IMG/VR virus record: IMGVR_UViG_3300032291_004330
Span: 1-29,358 of that record
Reading direction: 5' to 3' (one strand)
DNA length: 29,358 bases
From: a virus
Shown here: positions 3,101 to 28,909 of the stretch, one piece after another
Layout of the letters: each line of letters starts with the position of its first letter
How positions within the stretch are numbered: position 1 is the stretch's first letter
The notes under the pieces: model-generated
What the model was told of the DNA's origin: nothing
What the model saw: the letters and a program-made list of their open reading frames with translations, nothing else
Database searches by the model: none
Position numbers and translations under genes: made by a program

Positions 3101-4108
3101 TTAGTAAATTAAGTGTGGTTTAGCTTCACTTTGTCCAGCATTGGTAACTTGAACCCAATCAGGATTGTAGGTTGAAAAATTATCTGCCCCTGCATATGAG
3201 AATGCGGAACGAACCCCATCTAAAAGACCCTCGATAACATACTTTACACCACCTTTATATGGAATAATTGTACTCTCACCCTCAACATTTCTTTGTTCCT
3301 GACCGTGTGTCATTTTGGTTTCTAAAGACGCAGCACCTCTATATCTCTTATATAATCCTGTTGGTTTTTCAATAATTGAACCGGGAGACTCTTCAGTCCC
3401 CGCCAAAAGAGAACCAATCATAACACTACTTGCACCTAAAGCCAATGCTTTTGCAATATCACCACTTGTTCTGATTCCTCCGTCAGCTATCACAGGAACT
3501 GATGAATAAGGAACTATCTCCAACAATGACGAAACATTTGGAAGTCCAAAACCTGTTTTTATTCTTGTAGTACATAACGAACCTCCACCAATCCCCACAC
3601 GTAACCCATCCGCACCCCAATCACATAAGTCTTCGGCAGCTTTACGAGTTGCAATATTTCCGGCAATTACATCTACATTTGAGTTAATCGATTTGATTTT
3701 ATGTATTGCATCTTTAACGTTCTTGTGGTGACCGTGAGCAACATCAATTAAAATGATTTTTACACCCGAAGTCACTAAATCTTGAGCCCTTTCATAAAAA
3801 TCACCATTCGCTCCAACTGCCGCCATAACTAATATATCGGGTGAAGTTCTACTAATGACATTTTGAACCATTTTAATCTGAGAATCAATTGTCATAAATC
3901 TATGAATACAACCAATCCCACCCATAAGAGCAAGTTTAACAGCCATTTCTTCTTCACATACCGTATCCATAGGTGCGGTGACAAAGGGAATTTTAATTTT
4001 ATATCTTTTTGTAACAGTTGTTGTTAAATCTATATTTTTTCTTGAGGTGATTTCTGAATAAGATGGAACAAGTTGGATGTCATCGTAAGTGAGTGCGATA
4101 GGTTTCAT
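3101..4108 (-). CDS. IMP dehydrogenase / GMP reductase family enzyme without CBS domains
   Basis: From ATG 4108 the product is 335 residues, a single TIM barrel. It contains [15 protein letters not shown] near the N-terminus, the active-site loop [13 protein letters not shown] with the catalytic Cys at about residue 179, [21 protein letters not shown], and a C-terminal flap with IIPYKGGV and SAFSYAGA. It ends [15 protein letters not shown], more like IMPDH than GMP reductase. IMPDH makes XMP for GTP synthesis; GMPR does the reverse step from GMP to IMP. The CBS regulatory module of cellular IMPDH is absent. I prefer 4108 over TTG 4126 because it lies 10 nt after a strong promoter. The choice between guaB and guaC is left open. 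Confidence 0.88.
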
Positions 4109-4123
4109 AATATTAATTTTACA

Positions 4124-4154
4124 CAAAAATAGATAAAATGTTTGACATTACAAA
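4124..4154 (-). promoter_or_regulatory. Bacteroidetes-type promoter for the guaB-like gene
   Basis: On the minus strand TTTG (4154-4151), a 19-base spacer and TATTTTTG (4131-4124) match the TTTG-N19-TAnnTTTG consensus fully. The predicted start near 4118 gives about 10 nt of leader before ATG 4108. Confidence 0.75.
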
Positions 4155-4669: not shown

Positions 4670-5347
4670 ATGAATATTTCAAGCGAATTTAGTAGTTATT
4701 ACACTAAACATTTAGGAAAGGGGTCTTTAGACCTTCATTACCACAACTCTCAGATTGAGTCCTCAATGACTCCTTATATTTTGGAAGAAAGAGAAATGAG
4801 AGCAACACAAATTGATATTTTTTCAAGATTGATGAGAGACAGAATTTTATGGGTTGCGGGTCCTGTTGACGATAGAATGTCTACCATTGTTCAAGCCCAA
4901 CTAATGTTTTTGGATAATACAGACAAGGCGGATATTACAATGCATATTGACTCCGGTGGAGGCTCGGTCAAATCAGGTCTTTCTATGGTTGATGTTATGA
5001 ATTATATTGCTTGTGATATAAGAACGGTCAATACAGGAATGGCGGCTTCTATGGGTTCCGTATTGCTCGGAGCGGGCACAAAAGGTAAAAGAAGTTCATT
5101 GAGATTTTCAAGAACTATGTTACATCAATCATCAGGGGGGTTTAGTGGTAACATTCAAGATGCCGAAATTGATATGAAAGAGTGGCATAAAGTTAATAAA
5201 ACCCTTTTCGAACTTCTTGGTGAGTATTGCGGAAAACCTGCGGAAAAAGTAATGAAAGATGCTCAAAGAGACTTATGGTTGGATAGTCAGGAATCTTTAG
5301 ATTATGGTATTATTGATGAAATCGTTACATCAAAAAAAGTTAAATAA
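4670..5347 (+). CDS. clpP: ClpP-family serine protease
   Basis: The 225-residue protein has the full ClpP core: MHIDSGGGSVKSGLSMVDVM, the nucleophile Ser127 in GMAASMGSVLLGAG, His152 in MLHQSSGG, and Asp201 in AQRDLWLDSQESLDYGIIDEI. ClpP forms a two-ring peptidase chamber fed by ClpX/ClpA-type ATPases (family knowledge). A phage copy may join host ATPases to alter proteolysis, or may act in virion maturation. A longer N-terminal region (about 45 residues before the core) distinguishes it from typical cellular ClpP. No partner ATPase is in the window. It is the second gene of a host-type promoter unit and is closed by a terminator. Confidence 0.92.
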   Translation: MNISSEFSSYYTKHLGKGSLDLHYHNSQIESSMTPYILEEREMRATQIDIFSRLMRDRILWVAGPVDDRMSTIVQAQLMFLDNTDKADITMHIDSGGGSVKSGLSMVDVMNYIACDIRTVNTGMAASMGSVLLGAGTKGKRSSLRFSRTMLHQSSGGFSGNIQDAEIDMKEWHKVNKTLFELLGEYCGKPAEKVMKDAQRDLWLDSQESLDYGIIDEIVTSKKVK

Positions 5348-7221: not shown

Positions 7222-8277
7222 TTAATAATTAATGTCACTTACATTTATTTTATCTACGTCAGGTTTTTCTTCTTTTGAAGTGGTTGCCCCTCCTGTACCG
7301 CATATTTTTGGAATATCAGAATCTGAGAATCCATTTGGAAACCCTTTTTGTGCTAATTTGTTTTGTGTTTTAGGGCCAAATTTACCATCATCGGTTAATC
7401 CTAAGCATCTTTGAGCTTCCGCAATTTTATCTGATTTACAACCTTTAGTATAGTTAGGTGAACAATCTGTTTTCCATACGAAAGAAGTTTTTTTCTTCTT
7501 GTCTTTATCACTATCTTCATCTCTCTCTTCACTTTTTTTAGGACAGGTTGCTGCTTTTGCGGTTGCTATTTCCTCACTTGTTACTTTGTATTTAACAACA
7601 TAATCAGCCCATTCCATACCATTAACTACCGGATTTGATGCATAAATTACACCGTTTTTAACTGTACACCAAACACTGTTGATGTTTTTTTGTCTTTCAT
7701 CAGTAGTTTCTACTGGTGGTTCTGTTGTTGTTGGTAATGGATTTGCGTCAATTATATCTGCAATAGGTGCCCATATATATTTTGTAACTGAAGAGCCATC
7801 GAAGTCACCATCTAAATCATCTATTAAGTCTCCGTATTTTAAATCATAAACTCTTTTTAATTCACATAAATCAGCAGGGGTCTTCATTGAGCTAAGAGCT
7901 TCTAAAACAGCGTCCTCATCAGTTCCCAATCCATCAATTGCGTTATAAATACTATTTGCAGCGTCTCTATGGTTTACACCTGAAGTCGGCTTCAATTTTG
8001 ATATAACTGCACTACAACCTTCAAAAAAAGTAGTAATCTTTCCCCAAGAACTCGAAGAAGCATTTGCATCATATATCCATTTGGAAATAGCGGCAACTGC
8101 CGTAGCACCTGCACCATAAAGCCAAGGAGCAGCTGCTACTGCAGCAATTACAGGGGCAATTTCGTTCAACGGTTTTTGACTCTCTTGATTCTCAGTCAAT
8201 GTTTTTCTTGTATCATATTTCATCAAAAGTTTAGCCCTTTCTAAAGCCTCTTTTGGTGTTAAGTTCTCTTGTATCAT
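7222..8277 (-). CDS. Annexin-like repeat plus peptidoglycan-binding domain, probable virion protein
   Basis: The 351 residues fall in order as follows. A leader at 1-30 (ERAKLLMKYDTRKTLTEN) contains LTE. An Ala-rich hydrophobic stretch lies at 38-70. Residues about 104-168 read as a single annexin-type repeat, with AIDGLGTDEDAVLEALSS carrying the GxGTDE calcium-loop signature, then CELKRVYDLKYGDLIDDL and DFDG. A Thr/Pro linker lies at 181-192, a Lys/Asp-rich linker at about 248-263, and residues 283-312 form a peptidoglycan_binding_1-like motif (AEAQRCLGLTDDGKFGPKTQNKLAQKG). The start follows ATATATTTATAAA. A wall- and membrane-contacting virion part used at entry is a reasonable inference. 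Confidence 0.7.
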   Translation of the reverse strand: MIQENLTPKEALERAKLLMKYDTRKTLTENQESQKPLNEIAPVIAAVAAAPWLYGAGATAVAAISKWIYDANASSSSWGKITTFFEGCSAVISKLKPTSGVNHRDAANSIYNAIDGLGTDEDAVLEALSSMKTPADLCELKRVYDLKYGDLIDDLDGDFDGSSVTKYIWAPIADIIDANPLPTTTEPPVETTDERQKNINSVWCTVKNGVIYASNPVVNGMEWADYVVKYKVTSEEIATAKAATCPKKSEERDEDSDKDKKKKTSFVWKTDCSPNYTKGCKSDKIAEAQRCLGLTDDGKFGPKTQNKLAQKGFPNGFSDSDIPKICGTGGATTSKEEKPDVDKINVSDINY

Positions 8278-14705: not shown

Positions 14706-14903
14706 ATGAAACTTTTTTTTACTTTAGTAATTTTAATAGCGAAATTTTATTTAGGTATAAGAATTTTATGGTGGATTTTTTTAAAATTCTCACATCCTGA
14801 ACAACATCACTTTGATGAAATTGAGGCATATGTTGTTCTTTTAATTTTTGACATATGGGTTGGAGGTCAAAGTGTGGAAATAAATAAAATTGAAGAATCT
14901 TAA
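14706..14903 (+). CDS. Small membrane protein
   Basis: The 65-residue product has two hydrophobic segments, residues 3-27 (LFFTLVILIAKFYLGIRILWWIF) and about 42-53 (AYVVLLIFDIWVGG), with HPEQHHFDEIE between them and an acidic tail. It overlaps the end of the convergent PPK2 gene by 4 nt and is the only plus-strand gene between two minus-strand late genes. No promoter is clear. Function is unknown. Confidence 0.55.
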   Translation: MKLFFTLVILIAKFYLGIRILWWIFLKFSHPEQHHFDEIEAYVVLLIFDIWVGGQSVEINKIEES

Positions 14904-15994
14904 GGTTTCAAAATAGTCAATACTTCAGGATATTCAACATTTACTGCATCTTCGTTTTTATTTTCATAAGGAATATTCTGTAAAATATATCTTATCGCAT
15001 TGAGTCCTGATATTTTTTTATCTTCAGAGTCAATTACAACCCACGGATGATTTACTGTTGAGGTTTTATCAAATAATTTCTCTTTAAATTCTGTAAATCT
15101 GTCCCACAAGTCTTGCATTCTTGCGTCATTGGGTGAATATTTCCAATATTTCAAAGGGGATTGTTGACGAATTTGAAATCTTCTTGCTTGAGTTCCTTTA
15201 TCAATAGAAAACCAAAGTTTGAAAAGGTAATCTCCTTCTTTTACCAAATCATTTTCAAAATCTTCAACATTTTCCATAAAATCTTCATATTCTTCAGGAC
15301 TTCCGTAACCCATAACAGGTTCAACCAATCCTCTGTTATACCAACTCCTGTCAAAAAGATTAATCATCCCTTTTTTAATTTCTCTTTTATATCTGTCCCA
15401 CCAATTTTTTCTATCTTCAGGTGTAGGTACTCCCAAAGCAACAACATTATAATGTCTTGGATTTAAGTTTTCCGTAAATTTCTTAATGGTTGAACCCTTT
15501 CCTGCAGAATCTCTTCCTTCAAAAACAACAATTACCGTTTTTCCAATATTTTTTAACCATTCTTGTAGTTTTAACAATTCAACCTGTAAATAATATAGTT
15601 CTTTTTTGTAGATTTTTTTTGGAATGATTGATGGTTCTTGTGGTTCAAATTCATAGTCTTCACTTTCAGGTTCTACTCCATAACCACTTCTTTCTCTATA
15701 TCTAAGTGATGAGTTAATTTTAGTAAAATACTCTTCAACATTTTTTTTCTTATCACCTTTTTTAAGTAATATTTTTCTAAGTCCTCTCTCAACCATATCA
15801 AAATCAATAATTCTGTCTTCCGCTAAGTAAGACAAATCCATTAACATTTTCTCAATTTTTTTGGTGTATAATTTTAATAGAGTTAGTGTATAAACAACTT
15901 TTTTTAAGTTAATATTCATTTGTTTTCCACTACCTTCCGCTTCATTTATACCCATCACTTTCTTAATTCTTGATATTTCGTTTAAAAAATCCAT
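14900..15994 (-). CDS. ppk2: Polyphosphate kinase 2 with N-terminal phage leader
   Basis: Residues about 125-345 are a complete PPK2 domain. Walker A is FEGRDSAGKGSTIKKF (Gly160-Ser168), followed by the Walker B region INLFDRSWYNRGLVEPVMGY and the lid/substrate region KLWFSIDKGTQARRFQIRQQ plus SPLKYWKYSPND. PPK2 enzymes transfer phosphate between polyphosphate and nucleoside mono- or diphosphates. About 120 residues precede the domain and begin MDFLNEISRIKKVMGINEAE, with LNE and INE triplets as in sister late proteins, so the enzyme may be packaged and injected. The start lies near a late box (AGTATTTATAT); a consensus host-type promoter also points at it from 16115. The PPK2 class cannot be settled by eye. 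Confidence 0.9.
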   Translation of the reverse strand: MDFLNEISRIKKVMGINEAEGSGKQMNINLKKVVYTLTLLKLYTKKIEKMLMDLSYLAEDRIIDFDMVERGLRKILLKKGDKKKNVEEYFTKINSSLRYRERSGYGVEPESEDYEFEPQEPSIIPKKIYKKELYYLQVELLKLQEWLKNIGKTVIVVFEGRDSAGKGSTIKKFTENLNPRHYNVVALGVPTPEDRKNWWDRYKREIKKGMINLFDRSWYNRGLVEPVMGYGSPEEYEDFMENVEDFENDLVKEGDYLFKLWFSIDKGTQARRFQIRQQSPLKYWKYSPNDARMQDLWDRFTEFKEKLFDKTSTVNHPWVVIDSEDKKISGLNAIRYILQNIPYENKNEDAVNVEYPEVLTILKP

Positions 15995-16083: not shown

Positions 16084-16115
16084 CAAAGTTAAAAAAAAAT
16101 AAAATGGCAACCAAA
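16084..16115 (-). promoter_or_regulatory. Bacteroidetes-type promoter toward ppk2
   Basis: On the minus strand TTTG (16115-16112), a 20-base spacer and TAACTTTG (16091-16084) fit the consensus. The -33 end lies inside the start of the divergent gene at 16104. The leader to ATG 15994 would be about 84 nt. Confidence 0.45.
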
Positions 16116-16424
16116 AAAACTACCGAAAAAGCCGAATCAGTTGCTGCTCAAGCAGTTGATAAAATAAAACCACCAATTTCCTTCAAAGAATTTGCAAAAG
16201 AACCTGTTAAGGGTTTGATGTTTATATGTATAATCGCAGTTGGTTATTTATATGTGGACATTAAAATGAGTAATACGTCAAGTCAAGCATCGCAAAACGC
16301 TAAAATTGAAAAATTAGAAACAAAGGTTGATATGTTAACTAATGCGTTAAGAAAATCAGACAGTACATTATCTGCCGCCGCATCTAAAATCGCGGTATTA
16401 CAAGAATTAGGTAAAATTAAATAA
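16104..16424 (+). CDS. Membrane-anchored coiled-coil protein, inner-spanin-like shape
   Basis: The 106-residue protein has a basic/Ala-rich cytoplasmic N-terminus (1-35), one membrane helix at about 36-52 (KGLMFICIIAVGYLYV), and a periplasmic heptad-rich tail (AKIEKLETKVDMLTNALRKS; AAASKIAVLQELGK). The shape resembles inner spanins (Rz-type). It ends 1 nt before the PAS protein start and heads an apparent lysis cassette. Its true promoter is unclear: AATATTTATATTTTG lies upstream at 16045-16059. Assignment is by shape and place only. Confidence 0.65.
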   Translation: MATKKTTEKAESVAAQAVDKIKPPISFKEFAKEPVKGLMFICIIAVGYLYVDIKMSNTSSQASQNAKIEKLETKVDMLTNALRKSDSTLSAAASKIAVLQELGKIK

Positions 16425-16425
16425 T

Positions 16426-17538
16426 ATGAAACAACTATCAAAAGAAGAGTTGTTGAGTAGAATGGAAGCGATAAATAGAAGTAACGCTATTATCTACTTT
16501 GACCTTGCGGGTATCATATTAGGTGTGAATACTATCTTTTTAGAAACGATGGGATACAAGGATGGTGAACACGAAAAGATTATTGGTCAGCACCATAGTA
16601 TTTTTGTTTCTCCTGAATATGCAAAGTCAGATGAGTATAAAAAGTTTTGGGAAACATTAAGGGGTGGAAAGTTTTATGAAGGTGAGTTTGAAAGAATTAA
16701 GTTAGACGGAAGTATTATTTACTTACAGGCAACTTATAACCCAATACTAAATGAAGATGGTGAGGTAACTAAGATAATGAAAGTCGCTAGTGACATTAGT
16801 ACAACTGTAATAGCAAAGAATGAAATTAATGCGGTAAGTAAAAGTAATGCGATTATCTATTTTGATTGTGATGGATACATACTTGGTGCAAATTCCATAT
16901 TTCTAAAGGCAATGGGATTTGACGAAAAAGATGAAAGTAAAATTATTGGAAAGCACCACAGTATTTTTATTAGTTATGAGTATTCAAAATCAGATGAGTA
17001 TAAAGAGTTTTGGGTAAAGTTAAAAAGTGGAAAGTTCTTTGAGGGGGAGTACGAGAGAAGGAAAGTAGATGGAACCCCTATTTTTTTGAAAGCAACTTAC
17101 AATCCAATACTTAGCAACGATGGTACTTGTAAAAAAGTAATGAAAATTGCCAATGACATTACTGAAACCATTAACAGTAAAAAGAGAATAGATGAACTTT
17201 CAAAAAGTTTACAAATTGAGTTAGATAATTCAAACAAACTTAAAGATGCTATAGAGGTAGAAAAGAATGCCGCTTTGAATGATTTAGATGCAACTATTAA
17301 AAAGAGTCAAAGTGAATTAATCAAAGTGATTGTTAAAGTTGCGTTGGCTGTAATAGTAGGTGTTGGGGCTGTTACCACTGTTTTATATTGGTTGGCAATG
17401 ATAACAGGTAAGGACACTCAAATAATCGGGTCAACTTGGAGTAATATGTTTAGTGTTTTACTAACAAATGCTTTTTCAATAGTTGGTACAATTATGGGTA
17501 TTAAGTACGCAACACAAGACGATAAGAAAAACAAATAA
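16426..17538 (+). CDS. Tandem PAS domains fused to two C-terminal membrane helices (possible sensing holin)
   Basis: The 370-residue protein contains two similar PAS domains, at about 15-125 and 137-247. Each has NAIIYFD ... ILG-N-IFL-x-MG(Y/F), IIG-HHSIF, KSDEYK-FW, GKF-EGE-ER and ATYNPIL, ending in a DI(S/T) exit helix. This is the form found in Aer- and chemoreceptor-type PAS. A coiled coil (250-300) follows, then helices at about 300-326 and 337-361, and a charged tail. Nothing like a kinase, cyclase or MCP domain is present. The C-terminal half looks holin-like. It sits among spanin-like genes and the endolysin, so it may couple redox or ligand sensing to lysis (inference). Confidence 0.8.
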   Translation: MKQLSKEELLSRMEAINRSNAIIYFDLAGIILGVNTIFLETMGYKDGEHEKIIGQHHSIFVSPEYAKSDEYKKFWETLRGGKFYEGEFERIKLDGSIIYLQATYNPILNEDGEVTKIMKVASDISTTVIAKNEINAVSKSNAIIYFDCDGYILGANSIFLKAMGFDEKDESKIIGKHHSIFISYEYSKSDEYKEFWVKLKSGKFFEGEYERRKVDGTPIFLKATYNPILSNDGTCKKVMKIANDITETINSKKRIDELSKSLQIELDNSNKLKDAIEVEKNAALNDLDATIKKSQSELIKVIVKVALAVIVGVGAVTTVLYWLAMITGKDTQIIGSTWSNMFSVLLTNAFSIVGTIMGIKYATQDDKKNK

Positions 17539-17544
17539 AATAAT

Positions 17545-17862
17545 ATGAGAAAAATTTTTATATCAATACTATTAATTTCAATAATTGGTTGTGGTGATAA
17601 TGCCCCGATAATGTCCAATTCAGGAATTAATGTTGATTCTTTAATTCAACAAAATAAAGAAACATTTGAAATTGCAACAGAGGCAAGTAAAAAAAGTGAT
17701 ACTACGATAACCAATAAAGTAGATAACACTGTAAAGAAAATTGGTCAATTAGAAAACGAAATAAAACAATTAAAAGAAGAAAACAATGAACTTAAAGATA
17801 AACTTGACGATGCTAGTGATGCTGGTCGCTCTTTTCGTATCCGCGCAATATCCAACAACTAA
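17545..17862 (+). CDS. Coiled-coil lipoprotein, outer-spanin-like
   Basis: The 105-residue protein has a short signal peptide with lipobox IIGC at Cys16, a Ser/Asn-rich segment, and a strong coiled coil at about 60-92 (VKKIGQLENEIKQLKEENNELKDKLDD). The last 77 bases overlap the next gene in a different frame, an arrangement like Rz/Rz1 gene pairs. It starts 6 nt after the PAS protein stop. An outer-membrane lipoprotein partner for membrane fusion at lysis is the best guess. Confidence 0.65.
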   Translation: MRKIFISILLISIIGCGDNAPIMSNSGINVDSLIQQNKETFEIATEASKKSDTTITNKVDNTVKKIGQLENEIKQLKEENNELKDKLDDASDAGRSFRIRAISNN

Positions 17863-18214
17863 AAAAATAAATGGTGTTCAGGTCGTTATTATGACAGTAC
17901 CGCAAGCGGAACAGATTGATAATCAATTTAATATATTAAATGACAGTATTGTTGAATTGAATAGTCAAATTAAAACAAAATCTCATCAGGTAAGGGTAGT
18001 TGACTTTCAACGCGAAAAAACAAATGATAGTTTACAACTATTTAAATCCAATCTTTTTACTGCGAACTATACAATTGATTCTCTAAAAAACGAAACAAAA
18101 AGAATAGAACGTTTAGAATATATAGAAAAAAGAACCAGAAAAAGATTAGGATATGGTATTGGTGGTGTTCTTGTTGTATGGGTGGTATTTGCAATTGGTG
18201 TTATTATTAATTAA
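17786..18214 (+). CDS. Signal-peptide and C-terminal-anchored coiled-coil protein, spanin-partner-like
   Basis: ATG 17786 lies inside the lipoprotein gene and opens a +1-frame gene of 142 residues. Residues 1-21 form a signal peptide ending VSAQ. A periplasmic stretch follows with helices (AEQIDNQFNILNDSIVELNSQI; DSLQLFKSNLFTANYTIDSL) and a basic segment (KRIERLEYIEKRTRKRLGYG), then a single C-terminal helix at about 122-141. It would be inner-membrane tail-anchored, the reverse of classical inner spanins. The overlap and the coiled coils suggest that it pairs with the lipoprotein. Confidence 0.65.
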   Translation: MNLKINLTMLVMLVALFVSAQYPTTKKINGVQVVIMTVPQAEQIDNQFNILNDSIVELNSQIKTKSHQVRVVDFQREKTNDSLQLFKSNLFTANYTIDSLKNETKRIERLEYIEKRTRKRLGYGIGGVLVVWVVFAIGVIIN

Positions 18215-18239: not shown

Positions 18240-18278
18240 AAAAATATTTATTAGAAACTAAACCTAATAAATATTTTT
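18240..18278 (+). repeat. Perfect inverted repeat of two late boxes before the endolysin
   Basis: aaaaatatttattag (18240-18254) and ctaataaatattttt (18264-18278) are exact reverse complements, 15 bp with a 9-nt spacer, ending 3 nt before ATG 18282. The left arm holds the late box in sense orientation. In RNA the hairpin would block the start region of endolysin mRNA unless transcription begins inside it. Confidence 0.7.
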
Positions 18279-18281
18279 TTT

Positions 18282-19091
18282 ATGCTATTAAAAAATGGGT
18301 CTAAAGGAGATGACGTAAAAAAACTCCAATCTAAACTAGGATTAACTGCGGATGGCATCTTCGGTCCAGGAACTGAAAAGGCGGTTAAAGATTATCAAAC
18401 AAAAAATGGTTTGACTGCGGACGGAATTGTCGGAGAAGGTACTTGGAACAAAATGTTTGGTGAAGTCATTAAAGAAGATGTTATAATCCAACCTTCAGGT
18501 TCACTTAAACTTGATAAACTGAAAGGTCATATTCCTGATTCAGTTATTTCAATGATTCCCGAAACAGCCGAAAAATTCAAGATTGATACCCCATTAAAAC
18601 TTGCACACTTTTTAGCTCAGTGTGGTCACGAAAGTGGTGGTTTTAAAGTTGTTAACGAGAACTTAAACTATTCTGCGGACGGTTTGAAAAAAATCTTCGG
18701 AAAGTACTTTCCAGGAAATCTTGCAGAATCTTATGCGAGACAACCCGAAAAAATCGCCGCCCGTGTTTATGGAAGTAGAATGGGAAATGGAAGTGAAGAA
18801 ACAAAAGAAGGTTTTAAATTCCGTGGACGTGGATTTATCCAATTAACAGGTAAAGACAACTATTCTGCATTTGATAAATTCGTAAACGAAGATATTCTTT
18901 CAAATCCTGACCTTGTGGCAACCAAATATCCTTTACTATCCGCTGCTTGGTTTTTCCAAAGATGTTTACCAAAATGCACCGACGCATCAGATACGTCTGT
19001 TACATCCGTAACAAAATGTGTGAATGGTGGAACTATAGGATTACCTGATAGATTGAAACATTTCAAAGAATATTACAATTTATTGAAGTAA
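18282..19091 (+). CDS. Endolysin: peptidoglycan-binding domain plus GH19 chitinase/lysozyme-like domain
   Basis: The 269-residue protein has a peptidoglycan_binding_1 domain at 1-60 (LKNGSKGDDVKKLQSKLG; ADGIFGPGTEKAVKDYQ; ADGIVGEGTWNKMFG). Residues about 80-269 are a GH19-type domain: LAHFLAQCGHESGGFKVV with the likely catalytic Glu in HESGG, NYSADGLKKIFGKYF, KFRGRGFIQLTGKDNY, and SAAWFFQRC ... CVNGGTIGLPDR. GH19 endolysins cut glycan strands of peptidoglycan. No signal peptide is seen, so release depends on a holin. It closes the lysis cassette and is preceded by an inverted pair of late boxes. Confidence 0.92.
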   Translation: MLLKNGSKGDDVKKLQSKLGLTADGIFGPGTEKAVKDYQTKNGLTADGIVGEGTWNKMFGEVIKEDVIIQPSGSLKLDKLKGHIPDSVISMIPETAEKFKIDTPLKLAHFLAQCGHESGGFKVVNENLNYSADGLKKIFGKYFPGNLAESYARQPEKIAARVYGSRMGNGSEETKEGFKFRGRGFIQLTGKDNYSAFDKFVNEDILSNPDLVATKYPLLSAAWFFQRCLPKCTDASDTSVTSVTKCVNGGTIGLPDRLKHFKEYYNLLK

Positions 19092-27614: not shown

Positions 27615-27809
27615 ATGAATATAAACATAGATGGAAACGATTTATTAAAACACTTATCTTTCTGGCACAACAAAACAGATGACGAGTGTATTGAAATGGC
27701 GATGGGTGAATATGGGGTTGATGCCGAACAAGCACTAATGAATATGCTCGAAAGAGATTTTTGTACGCAGATGAATAACAATGTAGTTGAAAAATTAAAA
27801 AAGTTATGA
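27615..27809 (+). CDS. Small protein coupled to thyA
   Basis: The 64-residue product MNINIDGNDLLKHLSFWHNK ... ends VEKLKKL at TGA 27807-27809, which overlaps the thyA start as ATGA, so the two are translationally coupled. It is helical and acidic, with HNKTDDECIEMAMGEYGVDA EQALMNML. Function is not recognised. Confidence 0.65.
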   Translation: MNINIDGNDLLKHLSFWHNKTDDECIEMAMGEYGVDAEQALMNMLERDFCTQMNNNVVEKLKKL

Positions 27810-28909
27810 ATATAGACAAACAATACCAAAAATTACTTCTAGATATAATCCACAATGGAGTTGAAAAGAAAGACAGAACCGGTACAGGGACCATAAGCGT
27901 ATTCGGTAGACAAATCCGCCACAAAATGAGTGAAGGATTTCCATTATTAACAACAAAGAAGGTGCATTGGAAGTCAATCGTAACAGAATTACTATGGTTC
28001 TTAAAAGGTAGAAGTGACTTAAAGTACTTACTTGACAATGATTGCAACATCTGGACGGGGGATGTGTATAAGAACTTTCAAAAAACCTATGAAGGTAGAG
28101 ATGGTGAGATTATATTACCACCAGATGATTATATTAATGATGATGGTGAATTACTATCAAAAGAACAATTCATAGAAAAGATTAAAACAGACGAATCATT
28201 CGCTAAACGATTTGGAGAGCTCGGGCCCGTGTATGGTAAGCAGTGGAGAAGTTGGGAAACTAAAGAAAAAATAGATTTTAAAATACTAAATAATTCTGAT
28301 GGTTTAAAAATAGGACAATCATCTCTATATACTCCTCCAACTGTAGACCAAATCGCAAACCTAATCTCTGAACTCAAAACAAATCCTGACTCAAGACGAT
28401 TAATGGTTAATGCTTGGAATGTAGGTGAGTTAGACCAAATGGTACTTCCACCCTGTCATTATGGATTTCAAGTTTATACGAGAGAGTTGAGTATGGAAGA
28501 GAGAAATAAATGGTCTTGGGATAATTGGGGTATTACTTGTGAAATGGAAAGTGTTTTAGATGAGCAAGAAGTTCCTAAACGAGCAATCTCTTTAATGTAT
28601 AATACTAGAAGTCAAGACGTTCCGTTGGGCACCCCATTCAACATCGCAAGTTATGCTCTACTTTTAGAAATCATAGCCAAAGAAGTTAATATGGTTCCTG
28701 ATGAATTAATTGCTAATATGGGAGATTGTCATATCTACCTGAATCAAAAGGAAGGTGTTGTAGAACAATTAACAAGAGAACCATATCCATTACCGAAGTT
28801 AAAAATATTAGATAGTAAAGTTGATGATATTGCACATTATGAAATCGGTGATTTTATCATAGAAGGATACCAAAGTCATCCTGCAATACGAATGCCACTT
28901 TCTAATTAA
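27806..28909 (+). CDS. thyA: Thymidylate synthase (ThyA), with two extra segments
   Basis: The 367-residue protein is a ThyA. It contains DRTGTGTISVFGRQIRHKMS, HWKSIVTELLWFLKG, NIW, GELGPVYGKQWRSW, PDSRRLMVNAWNVGELDQM, the catalytic Cys217 in LPPCHYGFQVY, RSQDVPLGTPFNIASYALLL, GDCHIYLNQ and the C-terminal half. Compared with the usual family of about 265 residues it has an insertion at about 95-137 (with LSKEQFIEKIKTDESFAKRF GELG) and another at 225-260 (RELSMEERNKWSWDNWGITC EME ...). ThyA makes dTMP from dUMP using methylenetetrahydrofolate for phage DNA synthesis. It ends a translationally linked array and may be co-regulated with it. Confidence 0.95.
   Translation: MNIDKQYQKLLLDIIHNGVEKKDRTGTGTISVFGRQIRHKMSEGFPLLTTKKVHWKSIVTELLWFLKGRSDLKYLLDNDCNIWTGDVYKNFQKTYEGRDGEIILPPDDYINDDGELLSKEQFIEKIKTDESFAKRFGELGPVYGKQWRSWETKEKIDFKILNNSDGLKIGQSSLYTPPTVDQIANLISELKTNPDSRRLMVNAWNVGELDQMVLPPCHYGFQVYTRELSMEERNKWSWDNWGITCEMESVLDEQEVPKRAISLMYNTRSQDVPLGTPFNIASYALLLEIIAKEVNMVPDELIANMGDCHIYLNQKEGVVEQLTREPYPLPKLKILDSKVDDIAHYEIGDFIIEGYQSHPAIRMPLSN

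Follow-up and report, generated by a model that had tools for sequence, protein, structure and literature searches.

In many uncultivated phages a membrane hairpin, usually encoded beside lysis enzymes, is joined either to PAS sensors or to a kinase and regulator that retain their catalytic residues. One gene of this family lies at positions 16426..17538, on the plus strand, of the stretch of DNA analysed here (the window, a virus record of 29,358 bases that may be a fragment). Its best explanation is a signal-controlled membrane regulator of lysis with an output inside the membrane, a reading that we consider about as likely to hold as to fail. For the family as a whole, it is tentatively proposed, with confidence just short of even, that a near-invariant and phage-only hairpin, driven either by PAS domains or by a two-component system, tunes lysis to redox, oxygen or metabolic state without transcription. 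If the lysis role is true, protein signalling would let these phages derive the decision to lyse from the state inside the cell, with the hairpin as a compact and directly testable output.

The gene is an open reading frame of 370 amino acids, from ATG to TAA, and Pfam and AlphaFold2 resolved its product into two PAS domains, a coiled coil and a transmembrane hairpin, all read from the plus strand. PAS domain 1 occupies 16471..16803 (residues about 16-126; PF08447 at 16525-16785, E 3.0e-15) and PAS domain 2 occupies 16837..17169 (residues about 138-248; PF08447 at 16891-17148, E 5.3e-9); both adopt the fold in the AlphaFold2 model, and they are 59% identical over 119 amino acids. Over the whole protein, PF08447 (E=1.9e-21, two stretches), PF13426 (3e-19), PF00989 (3.1e-18) and PF08448 were above the curated Pfam cut-offs. 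A signalling helix or coiled coil with the conserved motif AxxDLDxxxKKxQxELI follows at 17161..17325 (residues about 246-300) and runs unbroken into transmembrane helix 1 (17326..17400, residues about 301-325), after which comes transmembrane helix 2 (17437..17505, residues about 338-360), both membrane helices being predictions from hydropathy and AlphaFold2. The model, built on a 36-row alignment with a mean pLDDT of 84, shows two PAS folds, a continuous helix at residues 246-327, a short turn and a second helix at 332-368, and nothing soluble follows the second membrane helix except about ten mostly charged residues.

No kinase, receiver, GGDEF, EAL, cyclase or MCP domain was matched in the protein by Pfam, and its NCBIfam matches were confined to the PAS part, plus one weak unrelated row. 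The preliminary description had seen tandem PAS domains, a coiled coil and two membrane helices lacking a kinase, cyclase or chemoreceptor output, and this architecture was borne out by Pfam, NCBIfam, AlphaFold2 and hydropathy. With no soluble output domain left, the protein would have to act within the membrane. The protein shares the PAS fold and its tandem arrangement with the PAS modules of chemoreceptors, DosP, MmoS, NifL and FixL, whereas it is devoid of MCP, kinase, EAL and AAA domains and has the C-terminal hairpin as its output. As the nearest folds of the window PAS domains include heme, FAD and flavin sensors, no cofactor is claimed for them. A match of PHROG 1544 to the C-terminus (E 0.0076) was too weak for use.

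The hairpin is the best conserved part of the protein. Among 56 dereplicated hairpin sequences (<85% identity), helix 1 showed conservation along a single face (entropy moment 0.62, with 0/5000 permutations as high), and helix 2 had no variable face (moment 0.11, p 0.84), with 17/23 positions nearly invariant (under 0.3 bits) and a stripe of polar or small residues formed by S336, N340, S343, T347, S351, G354 and G358. This pattern suggests that one side of helix 1 faces lipid and that helix 2 may be buried in an oligomer or in a complex with a partner. Silent sites were saturated among 34 two-PAS relatives, for which the median dN/dS ranged from 0.07 to 0.13; the hairpin, at about 0.07, was the most constrained part, with values of 0.09-0.13 in PAS and coiled coil. 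Ratios in this range with saturated silent sites indicate that the open reading frame in the window is not a chance one.

Searching with the entire protein gave 39 IMG/VR loci, whose products carry PAS once or twice, and alignment of the last 110 residues gave at least 580 candidate encoding stretches in the same collection. A stand-alone form of the hairpin used as query retrieved 278 encoding stretches and the neighbouring regulator retrieved 542, the best 80 loci being kept in each case; after removal of near-duplicates, 151 neighbourhoods with 151 detected hairpin open reading frames were available. Thirty long records (84-430 kb) contained exactly one hairpin gene each, and some carrier records exceed 300 kb. 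The carriers are metagenomic contigs whose completeness is not shown, and absences are provisional; motifs and families that go beyond Pfam and PHROGs are all defined by our own clusters.

The hairpin family appears to be restricted to phages. No relative was confirmed in one pattern-based GTDB scan of 84,980 bacterial and archaeal genomes, in which distant relatives could be missed; a bacterial origin of the hairpin was set aside on this result, and its function is therefore likely phage-specific. This also bears on the idea that the gene is a captured host sensor, i.e. a fragment of a chemoreceptor or kinase that lost its output and is carried as a passenger. The window PAS domains do resemble plasmid PAS-containing methyl-accepting chemotaxis proteins (about 50% identity), but purifying selection across the family, strongest in the hairpin, the number of phage candidates and the lack of a confirmed bacterial hairpin relative make a passenger gene very improbable.

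Neither the hairpin nor the regulator matched anything in the GenBank phage collection, and the PAS matches found there were discarded, as they came from unannotated records with chemoreceptor-type, bacterial-looking open reading frames. None of the profile libraries names the C-terminal hairpin family. Two UniProt entries from uncultured Caudovirales phages are apparent members, A0A6J5PRT3 being 49-51% identical to hairpin proteins and A0A6J5L941 showing 37% identity over the PAS pair; they are labelled as uncharacterised or 'histidine kinase' and were deposited without a hairpin function, and as far as the search shows, the arrangement of kinase, regulator and hairpin described below has apparently gone unrecognised. 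No description of a PAS-holin or of a phage lysis module made of kinase, response regulator and hairpin was found in the open-access literature, outside which most subscription journals lie. PADLOC models matched neither the window protein nor a 190-aa hairpin protein nor the response regulator, and a known anti-phage defence system was set aside on that ground. Compared with solved structures, the 190-aa hairpin protein gave, among the rows listed, common helical arrangements with Z under 8.

The family occurs in two forms. PAS domains and hairpin are one protein, as in the window, in 64/151 neighbourhoods (the fusion form), and most of the other 87 carry a trio in which genes for a histidine kinase and a CheY-like response regulator precede the one for the hairpin protein. 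The earlier statement that no kinase is involved thus holds for the window gene itself, but not for relatives of its C-terminal half, whose genes seem to share an operon with those of a kinase and a response regulator. The trio kinases often have PAS domains of their own and 0-2 membrane helices; the regulator, of about 143 amino acids, has no DNA-binding domain, and the hairpin protein (190-228 aa) carries its own conserved N-terminal domain in place of PAS. The two-component domains of the trio were matched as HATPase (PF02518, 1.6e-12) and receiver (PF00072, 2.1e-8). The kinases retain the RHDMHSG H-box and the N and G boxes, and the regulators retain the DD pair, D61 and K114, so that the trio has both an HATPase domain with H-box and a receiver with its Asp and Lys; the window gene has neither a kinase nor a receiver domain. 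In carrying these catalytic residues the trio resembles bacterial histidine kinase and CheY-like regulator pairs (PF02518, PF00072), from which it differs in being phage-encoded, often near lysis genes, and in having a membrane hairpin in place of a DNA-binding or motor output. The family also contributes many phage kinase-regulator pairs for which there is an obvious candidate for an output other than transcription.

Fusion and trio replace each other, with one hairpin copy per record. Of the 15 trio-type long records 14 had the regulator, compared with none of the 15 fusion-type ones, and in a tree of the C-terminal 125 residues the fusions fell on one side of a branch with 100/100 support, the single row labelled 'cassette' on that side (L088) being a fusion truncated where its contig stops. 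That the same output takes either of two inputs is the strongest reason to regard the hairpin as the output of signal transduction. The PAS domains of the window match those of trio kinases with up to 57% identity and 147 bits, next after other fusions, and the best listed places among 72,556 plasmids reach 125 bits; this suggests that PAS domains may have been exchanged within the system, in a comparison of collections and programs that differ. A neighbour family (c13/P0004) is also common to both forms. Variants of the trio were observed as well. At several loci (L207, L220, L239, L258 and others) a c13-type signal-peptide protein is flanked by two histidine kinases, and in four (L180, L183, L185, L196) an extra membrane protein of about 162 amino acids (cluster c86) lies between response regulator and hairpin gene. 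At two loci (L187, L154) the hairpin gene adjoins neither kinase nor regulator and is placed beside apparent structural genes; no regulator was found in the record of the former, and the latter was read in its neighbourhood only.

In the window, the hairpin gene sits in a lysis cassette that encodes, in order, a one-helix coiled-coil protein, the PAS-hairpin protein, a lipoprotein-like coiled-coil protein, an overlapping protein with signal peptide and membrane helix, and a GH19 endolysin. The first of these (16104..16424, plus strand, 106 aa) has one membrane helix and a coiled coil, an anatomy like that of an i-spanin, which may also be its function, and its relatives (cluster c40) adjoin the PAS-hairpin gene in other phages. 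Downstream, at 17545..17862 (plus strand), a 105-aa coiled-coil protein with a lipoprotein signal, including a lipobox-like IIGC read from the sequence, is o-spanin-like. Spanin-like genes had been described as bracketing the PAS gene, and the anatomy agrees on both sides; the one supporting profile match is a weak one, of the downstream protein to the Rz-like spanin family phrog_1267 (E=0.0094). Overlapping this gene in another frame, 17786..18214 (plus strand) encodes a 142-aa protein with signal peptide, coiled coil and C-terminal membrane helix, distantly related to the c13 proteins (c13 HMM E 1.7e-6) that are found near kinase genes in trio-type phages. The endolysin at 18282..19091 (plus strand) combines PG_binding_1 with a GH19 domain of chitinase/lysozyme fold (PF01471 1.1e-14, PF00182 1e-7, phrog_181 E=7.3e-64). 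It does lie downstream of the PAS gene, as had been stated, but not immediately, as two genes and 744 bases intervene.

Just before the endolysin start, a perfect A+T-rich inverted repeat was noted at 18243-18275, with 12-bp arms as tested, 15 pairs in the fold, a 9-nt loop and a fold z of -3.3. A terminator is one possible role, and a hairpin that blocks translation, such as that of T4 gene e, is another. Promoter and terminator scans of the cassette gave chance level only. Immediately ahead of the lysis module the window encodes, on the opposite strand, a polyphosphate kinase 2 (14900-15994, minus strand; PF03976, E 3.4e-72), which is also found near the PAS-hairpin gene in a few related phages.

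A position next to an endolysin, which the preliminary description had left to be checked in other phages, recurs there. Among 28 long records with a Pfam-detected endolysin, the hairpin gene lay <=3.5 kb from it in 20, where chance would give 1.6 (P about 7e-20 if placement is random and records are taken as independent, which related phages are not). This applied to 12/13 fusions and 8/15 trios, so the link to the endolysin is strong for the form present in the window and partial for the trio, whose low count is a point against the reading as a lysis regulator. The neighbouring endolysins are of GH19, GH24 and M15 types; in neighbourhoods with both genes, 92/96 are co-oriented, and the nearest endolysin is 1-3 genes away in 81/96. 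The claim of a sensor with membrane output is supported, as is that of a family tied to lysis genes.

A different role in membrane signalling of the infected cell, for instance superinfection exclusion or redox- or oxygen-responsive control of the membrane potential, with the place beside lysis genes kept for reasons of expression, is considered unlikely. The near-invariant hairpin would suit it, suggesting a conserved partner, and several trio-type copies are indeed far from endolysins (some by 37-81 kb) or beside structural, baseplate-like genes. Against it, the gene recurs far above chance next to endolysins of three unrelated types and next to a small two-helix protein (C3tm, below), and both forms have the same c13/P0004 neighbour family. 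A further observation concerns two cultured Cellulophaga phages, phi18:3 (gp090, L278:39102-39620) and phi19:1 (gp108, L279:4203-4925), which encode, near an endolysin or lysozyme gene, proteins without a Pfam match that have an N-terminal membrane helix, a coiled coil and probably a PAS-like fold, judged from Foldseek rows of the same phages and lengths; their domain order is opposite to that of the window protein.

It had been proposed that the window protein is itself a sensing holin, and this identity was not supported. The profile comparison placed PAS above cut-off in two copies, but no holin family of Pfam, PHROGs or NCBIfam matched; by the tests run, the protein appears to lie outside every described holin family. 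Separate candidates were found in relatives. C3tm, a sequence-variable protein of about 85 amino acids with two membrane helices, is present once in 27/28 distinct fusion-type records and lies <=2 kb from the hairpin gene in 12/14 of the long ones carrying it, compared with 0.55 expected. It forms a loose cluster of two sub-groups with no convincing match in the profile libraries, and its size, topology and place make it a likelier holin candidate than the hairpin. Another cluster (c6) occurs in 15/151 neighbourhoods, one member (L051:6622-7032) passing the PF05105 holin cut-off. By a short DNA match, the cultured phages closest to the window are the Flavobacterium phages 'immuto', in which a PF05105 holin follows the endolysin and nothing matches the hairpin family; they point to Flavobacterium-type hosts for carriers of the gene.

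S21 of phage 21 is an example of the class II holins, which have two transmembrane helices with both termini inside (PMC9636201). The two C-terminal helices of the window protein, predicted by hydropathy and in the model, agree with them in number and in their location in a lysis cassette, and from charges and the cytosolic type of the PAS domains they may have N-in/C-in orientation. Such holins are short and variable, whereas the window protein has 370 amino acids, about 300 of them in a large soluble part before helix 1, and a near-invariant hairpin that in the family usually lies beside another candidate holin. A hairpin acting as holin or gated pore, in which the PAS state or the phosphorylated regulator triggers oligomerisation of the membrane helices and opens the membrane to the endolysin, might nevertheless be imagined: helix 2, invariant on all faces with its polar and small stripe, and helix 1 with a variable lipid side are what would be expected of an oligomeric pore, and the gene adjoins an endolysin. 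We regard this as a rather doubtful account, given the separate candidates, the near-invariance, unusual for holins, and the lack of a holin profile match. The hairpin is probably not the hole-former in most carriers, and a reading as dedicated holin was rejected for want of profile support and because separate candidates lie nearby. A dedicated holin elsewhere, named beforehand as something that would refute the sensing holin, is thus probably present in relatives; in the 29 kb of the window neither C3tm nor a PF05105-type holin was found, so that in the window phage the hairpin may still be the holin.

For the preferred reading, a regulator of lysis, the input would be direct, through occupancy of the PAS domains, or a phosphorelay through the phosphorylated CheY-like regulator, and the input state would alter the long helix and thereby the packing of the hairpin. 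The most likely output would be the timing of holin firing by gating of the C3tm holin candidate, with a role as sensory antiholin or trigger as the alternative and, less likely, a channel opened by the hairpin itself. A contact of the regulator with the holin is put forward as a candidate from the genomic proximity of C3tm.

The timing of lysis is usually pictured as a holin clock, and the best-known case of sensing is lysis inhibition in T4. There RI exerts its effect on the periplasmic side and RIII on the cytoplasmic side, and neither is known to use PAS or a phosphorelay. Both are antiholins acting on the holin T (PMC9636201). Like them, the family to which the window protein belongs would be a phage-encoded, condition-responsive regulator that sets the time of hole formation, this being its proposed role; the likeness would be one of function, and the input differs, being PAS or a kinase-regulator pair. 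A response-regulator-like protein has also been linked to a lysis cassette in a bacterium, as RoeA, a PhoB-like regulator, controls the lysis cassette in Yersinia entomophaga (PMC10101115). RoeA acts by transcription, whereas the phage trio regulator is without a DNA-binding domain.

Elsewhere in the window, an annexin-like repeat just under the Pfam cut-off was seen at 7222-8277 on the minus strand (PF00191, 24.7 bits vs 25). Genes for an IMP dehydrogenase/GMP reductase (3101-4126, minus strand), a ClpP protease (4670-5347, plus strand) and a thymidylate synthase (27806-28909, plus strand) were also found.
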